Shown here: piece by piece, positions 47,049 to 51,220 of the stretch | How positions within the stretch are numbered: position 1 is the first letter of the stretch | Layout: every line of letters begins with the position of its first letter | DNA from: Comamonadaceae bacterium | GTDB taxonomy: Bacteria; Pseudomonadota; Gammaproteobacteria; Burkholderiales; Burkholderiaceae_C | DNA length: 64,000 bases | Direction: 5' to 3' | Assembly: GCA_004144865.1 (NCBI GenBank) | Contig: SEAY01000013.1 | Coordinates: 1-64,000 of the forward strand | Program-made: the position numbers and the translations under genes | Notes under the pieces: model-generated | The model's database searches: none | What the model saw: the letters and a program-made list of their open reading frames with translations, nothing else | What the model was told of the DNA's origin: nothing

Positions 47049-47546
47049 ATGCAAGCCATCCGCCGTTCCCTCGCCGCCGCCACCCTGCTGCTGGCGCCGG
47101 CCGCCCTCCTCGTCTCCCAGCCTGCCGCCGCGCAGGACCAGCGCTGGGAGCAGCACCAGCGCGACCACCAGGACGACCGTGGCGACCGCGATCACCGCGA
47201 CCTGCGCTGGCGCCGCGACGTCCATGCGCCGCAGATCATCGACGTGACGCCGGACCGGCGCGTCGGCGACCGGGGCCGCACGCGCATCGGGGTCCGCTTC
47301 CACGACCAGGGCAGCGGTGTCGCCGGCGTGCGCCTGCGCGTCGACGGCCGCGACGTGACGCACGCGGCGCGCGTGGACCACGATGAAGTCCGCTACCGCG
47401 ATGACCTGGCGCCCGGCCGCCATCACGCCGAGGTCGTGGTGCGCGACCGCGCGGGCAACGTCGCCCGGCACGCCTGGAGCTTCGTCGTGGTGGACCGCGA
47501 CCGCAATTACGGCTACTACGGCCAGCCGCCTTACCAGCGCTGGTAA
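47049..47546 (+). CDS. Secreted protein with Ig-like/cadherin-like domain
   Basis: signal peptide; RTRIGVRFHDQGSGVAGVRLRVDGRDVTHAARVDHDEVRYRDDLAPGRHHAEVVVRDRAGNVARHAWSFVV. Confidence 0.8.
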   Translation: MQAIRRSLAAATLLLAPAALLVSQPAAAQDQRWEQHQRDHQDDRGDRDHRDLRWRRDVHAPQIIDVTPDRRVGDRGRTRIGVRFHDQGSGVAGVRLRVDGRDVTHAARVDHDEVRYRDDLAPGRHHAEVVVRDRAGNVARHAWSFVVVDRDRNYGYYGQPPYQRW

Positions 47547-47639
47547 AGCGCAACGCCGCACGGGTGCGCCCGCACCCGTTCAGCTTGCGTTCACCCGGCG
47601 CCGCTACGCTGGGACATCACAACGAACCGGAGCCCTGCA

Positions 47640-48167
47640 ATGAAACGCATCACCCTTCTCGCCCTCGCCGCTGCCGCCGCCGCCCACGCCCAGGCGCAGG
47701 ACTTCGTGGACCGCGCCCGCGTGCAGCGCGTGGATCCGCAATACCAGACCGTCCAGGTGCCCCGCGACGAATGCACCAGCCAGTGGGTCAGCGAGCCGCG
47801 TCCCGCCGTGGGCGCGAACGGCTATGGCGGCGTCATCGTCGGCGGCGTCGCAGGCGGCCTGATCGGCAACCAGGTCGGCAAGGGACACGGCCGCGAGGCC
47901 GCCACCGCCGCCGGTGCGGTGATCGGCGCCATCGCCGGCGACCGGATCGCCAGCCGCGGCGCACAGCCCTACGAGCAGGCACAGCGCGAAGTGCGCTCCT
48001 GCCGCACGGTGTACGAGCAGCAGGCGCAGCTCACCGGCTACCTGGTGACGTACGAGTACCGCGGCCACGAGTACAGCACGGTGATGCGCGAGCAGCCGGG
48101 CCACACGGTGCCGGTGCGCGTGTCGGTCACGCCGATCGAGGAACAGGAAACCGGCCGCCGCCGCTGA
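47640..48167 (+). CDS. Glycine-zipper 2TM domain outer-membrane-type protein
   Basis: signal peptide; GVIVGGVAGGLIGNQVGKGHGREAATAAGAVIGAIAGDRIAS; HEYSTVMREQPGHTVPVRVSV. Confidence 0.9.
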   Translation: MKRITLLALAAAAAAHAQAQDFVDRARVQRVDPQYQTVQVPRDECTSQWVSEPRPAVGANGYGGVIVGGVAGGLIGNQVGKGHGREAATAAGAVIGAIAGDRIASRGAQPYEQAQREVRSCRTVYEQQAQLTGYLVTYEYRGHEYSTVMREQPGHTVPVRVSVTPIEEQETGRRR

Positions 48168-48172
48168 TCCCC

Positions 48173-48245
48173 AAAAAAAGCCCCCGGTGAAGGGGGCAGA
48201 GGGATCCTGATGTGGCTGTCCTGCGGCATTGCGCTCCGCAGACGC
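48173..48245 (-). ncRNA. Candidate small RNA with intrinsic terminator
   Basis: Minus strand: TACACT -10 (48257-48252), hairpin CTGCGG-AGCGCAATG-CCGCAG (48241-48221), terminator GCCCCC-TTCACC-GGGGGC followed by seven T (48197-48173). Confidence 0.45.
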
Positions 48246-48385
48246 AAGGCCAGTGTAGGGCGGCGCGGCCCGCGGCGGGCACGGGGAAAGCACCAGTGAT
48301 TGGCGCGGAACCGCGGGCCCACACTGTGGTCCAAGCGCATGCCGGCTCTGCGGCGGCGCGTCCCAACCCAAGCAGGAGACAATCG

Positions 48386-49360
48386 ATGCACCGTCGCAGC
48401 ATGCTCATCGCCGCCGGGGCCGCACTGGCCACCACCCTCGCCACCGCACAGGCGCAGGACCGCTGGCCGAGCAAGCCCATCACCTACGTGGTTCCCTTCG
48501 GCGCGGGCGGCACCACCGACGTGCTGGCGCGCCTCGTCACCATGAAGGCGGGACCGGCGCTGGGCACCAGCTTCATCATCGAGAACAAGCCCGGCGCCGG
48601 CGGCAGCATGGGCTCGGACTTCACCGCGAAGGCGGCGCCGGACGGCTACACGATCCAGGGCGGGACCATCAGCTCGCACGCGATCAACGTGAGCCTCTAC
48701 TCGAAGCTCCCCTACGACCCCATCAAGCACTTCCAGCCGATCACCATGATCGGTTCGATGCCCAACATCCTGGTGGTGCGCGCCGACAGCCCGCACAAGT
48801 CCGTGCAGGACGTGATCGCCGCGGCGAAGGCAAAGCCCGGCACGGTCAACTTCGCTTCCTCCGGCAACGGGACTTCGCAGCACCTCTCGGGCGTGTTCTT
48901 CGAGCAGATGACCGGTGCGAAGATGGTGCACGTGCCTTACAAGAGCAGCGCGGAATCGGTGAACGCCCTGCTGTCTGGCCAGGGGGCCGACATCATCTTC
49001 GAGAACCTCGCGCCCGCCCTGCCGCACATCAAGGCCGGCAAGCTGCGCGCGCTGGGCGTCACCTCCGCGAAGCGCTCGTCCTCGCTGCCCGAGGTGCCGG
49101 CCATCGCGGAGGTGCTGCCCGGCTTCGACATCGTGTCCTGGCAGGCGATCTTCGCGCCCGCCGGCGTGCCCAAGCCGGTGGTCGACCGGCTCTCGGCGGA
49201 GATGATCAAGGCGGTGAACGATCCCGAGATCAAGTCCAAGCTGGTGGCGCAGGGCATCGAGCCCGGCGGCATGACGCCGGCCGAGCTCGCGGCCTTCCAG
49301 AAGGCGGAAGTCGAGAAGTGGGCCCGCGTGATCAAGGCGGGCAACATCAAGGTGGATTAG
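48386..49360 (+). CDS. Bug/TctC family substrate-binding protein
   Basis: AQAQDRWPSKPITYVVPFGAGGTTDVLARLVTMKAGPALGTSFIIENKPGAGGSMG. Confidence 0.94.
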   Translation: MHRRSMLIAAGAALATTLATAQAQDRWPSKPITYVVPFGAGGTTDVLARLVTMKAGPALGTSFIIENKPGAGGSMGSDFTAKAAPDGYTIQGGTISSHAINVSLYSKLPYDPIKHFQPITMIGSMPNILVVRADSPHKSVQDVIAAAKAKPGTVNFASSGNGTSQHLSGVFFEQMTGAKMVHVPYKSSAESVNALLSGQGADIIFENLAPALPHIKAGKLRALGVTSAKRSSSLPEVPAIAEVLPGFDIVSWQAIFAPAGVPKPVVDRLSAEMIKAVNDPEIKSKLVAQGIEPGGMTPAELAAFQKAEVEKWARVIKAGNIKVD

Positions 49361-50302: not shown

Positions 50303-50401
50303 GGCTGGTACTCCCACGGCCGGGACGGCCGTGCGTTGCCTATGTAGCGCTGGCGTGCCCGCGCTGCAAGGCCCGTTTGCCCATCTTTACAAGGGCTGCA
50401 T

Positions 50402-51220
50402 TCAGCAGCGTCCGCCCTGCGCGCGGGTGAAGAGCGTCGCACCGTCGAGGGCCGGGTGGTCCTGGCGGTCCGCTGCCCGCAGCGTGTCGCCCACGACGTC
50501 GAGCACCATGGTGCGATCGCCCCGCGTGCGCAGGTGCAGCCGCTGCCCTTCCACGCGGCCGCTGCCCTCGCGCAGCTGCCCGCGCCGCACGAGGCGGCCC
50601 TGCACTTGCTGGAACTGCTGCGTGAGCTCCAGCGTGCCCGGGCCCATCAGCGGGTGCGGGCACCACAGGCCCTCGACACGCGCGGGCACGATCCACAGGT
50701 GCACCTGGCTGGCCTTGTCCAGGCCGACCTTCTTGTCCGGCACCGGCACGACGGTGGTGCGGTCCGGCTTCCATTCGCCCAGGTCGCGAGACGATGCGCG
50801 TGCCGGGCTTCAGCGCCAGCAGCTTCGGACGCAGTTGCAGGTTCACCTCCGGCAGCAGGTACATGGTGATCACGCTGGCGGGACCGAGGTCGGCCTGGAA
50901 CAGGTCCTGCTCGCGGAACTCCACGCGATCGGCCACCGCGGCCTCGCGCGCGTTGCGCCGGCTTTGCTGCACCAGGCGATCTCCACGCCGAGCCCCGTGG
51001 CGCCGAAGCGCTGGGCGGCGACGATCACGATGCGGCCGTCCCCCGAGCCGAGGTCGATGAGGTGGTCACCCGGCCCGACGTTCGCCGCCCGCAGCATCTC
51101 CAGCGTGACGTTGTCCGGCGAGGTGATGAAGGGCACCTCCTCGCCGGATTGCGCGCGCGCCGCGCCGCAGGCGACGCAGGCGAAGGCGAGCGCCGCGAGG
51201 CGCAGGGAAGGCAGGCGCAT
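50402..51220 (-). pseudogene. Exported SAM-dependent methyltransferase interrupted by two frameshifts
   Basis: Start frame VGPGDHLIDLGSGDGRIVIVAAQRFGATGLGVEI; other frame VQQSRRNAREAAVADRVEFREQDLFQADLGPASVITMYLLPEVNLQLRPKLLALKPGTRIVS; back to start frame for VPVPDKKVGLDKASQVHLWIVPARVEGLW to the stop. Confidence 0.75.

Follow-up and report, generated by a model that had tools for sequence, protein, structure and literature searches.

The interval 48257-48173 on the minus strand of the 64,000-nucleotide stretch of Comamonadaceae DNA analysed here (the window) is judged, with good confidence, to be a small-RNA gene, representing a divergent copy of a family that is dispersed within the genus, is absent from Rfam and would most likely act in trans. 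This assignment is read from the DNA itself, namely from a terminator, the lack of a close upstream minus-strand gene, relatives of the same layout, compensatory changes and a promoter box. A sequence-only reading had proposed a dedicated minus-strand sRNA at this position; the promoter, the 5' hairpin, the terminator and the relatives with the same anatomy argue for that proposal, whereas its further suggestion, pairing by the terminator loop and stem, does not appear to hold. The terminator, the second hairpin and the TACACT element it described were all found in place when the minus strand was inspected, the second hairpin (CTGCGG..CCGCAG, 48241..48221, minus strand) being the 5' hairpin of the family, and its estimate of about 70-75 nt agrees with the 73-75 nt derived from the -10 element and the terminator. 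The feature extends beyond the end it had been given, with a conserved promoter box at 48284-48292 on the minus strand. The elements are as follows.

48284..48292, minus strand: promoter box TGCTTTCCC, 26 nt upstream of the -10 element and centred at about -42; proposed activator site
48252..48257, minus strand: -10 element TACACT, with TAnnnT or TAnnAT at the equivalent place in relatives
Between the -10 element and the 5' hairpin, minus strand: segment GGCCTTGCG
48173..48247, minus strand: predicted sRNA of 73-75 nt, start at 48245-48247, from the -10 element and terminator, the covariance models R1 and R3 (below) and the fold
48220..48242, minus strand: 5' hairpin TCTGCGG-AGCGCAATG-CCGCAGG, a consensus hairpin with compensatory changes, present in the minimum free energy (MFE) structure of the 73-75 nt RNA
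48219-48198, minus strand: segment from the 5' hairpin to the terminator, ACAGCCACATCAGGATCCCTCT
48201..48217, minus strand: conserved linker AGCCACATCAGGATCCC, candidate pairing region, matching L093 and L095 and partly L126 and L132
48173..48197, minus strand: Rho-independent terminator GCCCCC-TTCACC-GGGGGC-T7, the sole strict one in 64 kb
47640..48167, plus strand: convergent neighbour, glycine-zipper 2TM protein (Rick_17kDa_Anti; Pfam PF05433)
48386..49360, plus strand: divergent neighbour, Bug/TctC-type periplasmic binding protein (Pfam PF03401)

The terminator was the starting point of the earlier proposal, which regarded it as the only canonical hairpin with a T-run in its region, and a search for strict terminators (stem of at least 6, at least 5 T) returned this one alone on either strand of the 64 kb. 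The window has a G+C content of 70.6% and only two A7/T7 runs, and with at least 7 T demanded, none of 200 dinucleotide shuffles of the window gave a strict terminator; given this and its singularity, the terminator is not a product of chance. Its hairpin has a folding energy of -13.8 kcal/mol (z = -3.0), and 5 nt separate its T-run from the stop codon of the glycine-zipper gene, which runs towards it. Across the whole genome, 14 distinct terminators of the form GCCC..GGGC-T6 were found, and none of the reversed control pattern. According to a simple codon-usage gene finder, a same-strand gene ends 10-63 nt before 10 of these; an eleventh, L081, comes after what was read as a truncated frame for ATP synthase epsilon, overlooked by the gene finder. 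The three orphans are the terminator at 48173-48197, which has no minus-strand gene close upstream, unlike those eleven, together with L080 and L082. L080 (its positions 135-196; contig C94 in the same genome) belongs to RF02278, the Betaproteobacteria toxic small RNA (59.4 bits), and has a good promoter, TATACT, upstream; since this orphan is a known sRNA, an orphan strict terminator is a reasonable flag for an sRNA here as well. L082 (1501-1658; C147:40367-40390) lies 134 nt past the nearest same-strand gene and has no Rfam or tRNA match, making it a candidate sRNA or 3'UTR. The exact 24-mer of the terminator has five matches among 84,980 species, in Enterobacteriaceae, a Lentisphaeria MAG and an Oxalobacteraceae MAG, which are probably convergent terminators.

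The surroundings of the locus have been rearranged. Nearly all of the relatives inspected have, directly after the glycine-zipper gene, a PepSY-like gene and then a response regulator and a histidine kinase; in the window these three are inverted (53492-51250), so the junction between the glycine-zipper and Bug genes is a rearrangement. G028 represents a further exception, with a convergent hemerythrin-like gene beside the glycine-zipper gene. The larger cluster of Ig-like, glycine-zipper, PepSY, response regulator and histidine kinase genes, which most of the genus keeps in collinear order, is broken up here and in part inverted (47049-48167, plus strand, versus 54598-51250, minus strand). 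The genus contains 15 close relatives of the Bug gene, whose contexts vary and none of which is accompanied by the upstream region found here. As neither gene brings the region along, synteny is uninformative about the RNA. At 49357-49360 the tails of the Bug gene (plus strand) and a polyketide-cyclase-like gene (minus strand) overlap by 4 bp, and no intrinsic terminator separates the two genes; at 50340-50972 (minus strand) a methyltransferase-like frame is apparently frameshifted, continuing in another frame at 50402-50749, as a pseudogene or through an assembly error.

BLASTN of the region against its own genome, 99 relatives and 201 family genomes returned the region itself and short chance matches only; judged by BLASTN and synteny alone, the region would pass for a species-specific orphan. 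Plasmid and phage collections, one collection per query, gave no match for it or for L093, L095 and L134. A covariance-model search, which the sequence-only reading had recommended, gave a different result: among 60 genomes of the genus it recovered eight relatives, all intergenic, and one of these lies in the genome of the locus itself. R1, a model of the locus sequence alone searched over the genus, ranked L093 and L095 first and third among its matches in other genomes. These two are 89% identical to each other by column before the terminator, sit in differing gene contexts and display the same order of elements as the locus: a -10 element, a 5' hairpin, AGC(C)A..TCAGGA..CC and a terminator. 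In global alignment the 5' part of the locus scores 13.5 against L093 (z = 5.7), which none of 3000 shuffles reaches and which only 4 of 841,312 windows of real DNA reach, at two sites; against L095, z is 4.0, with 1 of 3000 shuffles as high. On that link alone, the kinship of the locus with L093 and L095 may be called probable but not certain. The E-values of R1 are optimistic, since a match in coding DNA, L094 (29.6 bits), scored nearly as well; it was rejected as a coding-region coincidence. A model made from the part of L093 and L095 before the terminator fails to recover the locus, and R2, built from the 5' part of the two, found no convincing new member in 401 family genomes.

R3, which was built from the locus, L093 and L095 and thus includes the locus sequence in an alignment that leans to the structure, added six intergenic, terminator-ended copies: L126 in genome G017, L127 in G047, L128 and L133 in G028, L132 in G037, and L134 in the genome of the locus itself (C135:2834-2915). 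The family accordingly comprises nine copies in 6 of the 60 genomes, a lower bound owing to the strict filters used. The copies share a -10 box, a 5' hairpin, an unpaired "AGCCnnTCAGGAnnCC" and a terminator, with the linker of L127 the weakest among them, and none of the nine has a match in Rfam. Another locus, L003, carries the exact hairpin GCCCCCTTCACCGGGGGC but lacks the linker motif and was not counted.

The promoter provides evidence of a separate kind. The -35 region is weak, as had been stated, with GTGCCC as the best hexamer at a spacing of 19; the overall sigma-70 score of the promoter is reached 2.2 times per kb, and the score of the TACACT -10 element 0.15 times per kb per strand in the window and 1.5 times per kb in non-coding gaps. 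Further upstream, TGnTTTCCC occurs 25-26 nt from the -10 element in four of the nine copies (the locus, L095, L126 and L128). Within about 634 kb of DNA searched, the motif was found at 8 distinct places, 4 of which are family copies, corresponding to a frequency outside the family of about 3 per million positions. The box was recognised after the fact, through L126 and L128, but a box so rare, at so constant a distance, can hardly be due to chance; moreover, the covariance models start at the -10 element, so the box is independent of them, and it is the strongest single point for the family. Over the 50 nt upstream of the -10 element, the locus also aligns with L128 (z 4.1-4.4) and L126 (z 2.5-2.8), while its upstream region shows no overall similarity in alignment to those of L093 and L095. 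The intergenic position, the conserved -10 element and box, and an upstream Bug gene on the other strand together suggest that the RNA has a promoter of its own, as would be expected of a trans-acting sRNA.

The predicted structure is likewise shared. Conservation of the hairpins through compensatory changes, the absence of which was to have counted against the proposal, was observed: across the nine copies 10 of 13 pairs are changed on both sides, a number reached by none of 500 shuffles (slid controls, 0-4), and 91.7% of cells in the 5' hairpin and terminator stay paired, although, in an alignment that had been fitted to the structure, such covariation is supportive rather than decisive. The 5' stem reads UCUGCGG/CCGCAGG at the locus, CGGGCCGC/GCGGCCCG in L127 and GCUGCCU/GGGCAGC in L132, differences of the sort that compensatory evolution would give; the hairpins of L128 and L134 are comparatively weak. 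Taken whole, the RNA of the locus folds no better than its shuffles (z about -1). With a start 5-7 nt after the -10 element (48247-48245), the 5' hairpin lies within the MFE structure; in a transcript that reaches 5' as far as 48252, it loses out to a competing stem, UUGCG/CGCAA.

The principal alternative is that there is no separate sRNA and that the terminator halts minus-strand read-through from the two-component/cyclase cluster (54598-49357, minus strand), shielding the glycine-zipper gene from antisense transcription. The cluster's last gene and the Bug gene overlap tail to tail, and no strict terminator lies between the cluster and 48197, as this explanation would have it. It is nevertheless considered unlikely, because the terminator stands 1.16 kb past the last gene of the cluster, in contrast to the 11 of 14 similar terminators that lie within 63 nt of a stop codon or nearly so, because the conserved promoter box, hairpin and linker would be left unexplained, and because the relatives occupy other contexts.

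Still less probable is a relic, in which an sRNA gene or gene end brought in by the rearrangement is decaying without function. The junction is indeed rearranged relative to the genus, and the copy is divergent, having lost the A+T-rich promoter spacer present in L093 and L095; however, the spacers of L128 and L126 are equally G+C-rich and are accompanied by the same box, and at the locus the terminator, the -10 element, the box and the pairing of the hairpin are all intact. The region's minus-strand frames match nothing in Pfam and run into the terminator without a stop codon, so there was no sign of a relic gene end. It is highly improbable that the RNA is a leader controlling a downstream gene by transcription attenuation: a same-strand MarR-family gene does lie 73-112 nt past the terminator in L127, L133 and L134, but the next gene is convergent, 5-11 nt away, at the locus and in L126 and L132 (in L132 a MarR gene), which leaves no gene to be attenuated at these three and rules out attenuation in cis as a general role.

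A small-RNA gene therefore remains the preferred reading, and its anatomy is of a familiar type. The standard anatomy of trans-acting sRNAs is that of a short intergenic RNA with a 5' hairpin, a conserved linker that stays unpaired and a terminator with a U-tail, and the predicted RNA has both the U-tailed Rho-independent terminator and, in nine copies aligned to fit the structure, the conservation and compensatory changes expected of them. The same plan is displayed by Hfq-dependent trans-acting sRNAs of enterobacteria in general, for example STnc280 of Rfam, which aligns over the full length at 18.5 bits, far under its threshold of 80 and without significant sequence relation. The nearest known kind in lifestyle is represented by RF02278 (ncS03/05/27/62 of B. 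cenocepacia) and the related Bordetella S17S, which are 57-92 nt long, intergenic and terminator-ended, with several dispersed copies per genome (PMC4603805, PMC11722255); like them, the present family is short, intergenic, terminator-ended and dispersed in betaproteobacteria. The C/U-rich loops of RF02278/S17 pair with ribosome-binding sites (PMC11722255), whereas the family described here has a conserved linker, AGCC..UCAGGA..CC, which does not align with the RF02278/S17 linkers (z 0.5-0.8). Between 48100 and 48400 there was no RF02278 match at the gathering score or up to E = 10, in a search that does find L080. A published description of the family was not found in Rfam or in limited text searches, and earlier detection in a transcriptome table is possible. 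On these comparisons the predicted RNA belongs to a new family of a known kind and is not an RF02278 member.

With regard to targets, the terminator loop TTCACC and C-rich stem had been suggested to pair with ribosome-binding sites, an idea that is not supported, as the stem is paired with a probability of about 1 and the loop differs among relatives. Nor are local genes favoured as targets, since six local translation starts pair with the RNA no better than with shuffled RNA. The conserved unpaired portion is the linker, AGCC..UCAGGA..CC, and the stretch of it around UCAGGA is a more likely seed than any other part, the terminator loop and stem included.

We infer the following course of events. 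RNA polymerase would start 5-7 nt past TACACT, probably aided by a protein at the TGCTTTCCC box, and would yield an RNA of 73-75 nt in which a 5' hairpin is followed by a UCAGGA linker, unpaired for the most part, and by a Rho-independent terminator; the RNA would end 5 nt short of the glycine-zipper stop codon. Most likely the RNA acts in trans, its linker pairing with mRNAs, and an RNA chaperone such as Hfq may bind the U-tail.

The copies differ in their promoters. The promoter spacers of L095, L127, L133 and L134 contain an exact ATTTG..CAAAT palindrome, and that of L093 a degenerate one; in L127, L133 and L134 the palindrome is set in TTGAT(C/G)..TAnnAT promoters. L095 carries both the TGnTTTCCC box and the palindrome, and L132 neither. 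L134, in the same genome as the locus (1440-2140 with the following gene), has a stronger promoter, TTGATC-N17-TATGAT, with the palindrome GCATTTGTCCAAATGG in its spacer and a MarR-family gene 112 nt downstream, and L127 and L133 are alike. Guessing from position, the TGnTTTCCC box might bind an activator and MarR the palindrome. It is an evenly balanced proposition that these copies form an undescribed multi-copy family with one scaffold (5' hairpin, UCAGGA linker and terminator) and two promoter types, one with the TGnTTTCCC box and the other with the ATTTG..CAAAT palindrome, three copies of the latter standing upstream of a MarR-family gene.

The sRNAs of this branch of the Burkholderiales are apparently little described, text searches having yielded few relevant papers, and the present analysis offers a family of several copies that is open to testing, with its candidate seed defined and its promoters of two classes. 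It also illustrates that an orphan terminator without BLAST matches can mark a genuine sRNA gene that has diverged from its other copies. If the proposed division holds, sibling RNAs with one seed would answer to different signals, and MarR would be the likely controller of one branch.
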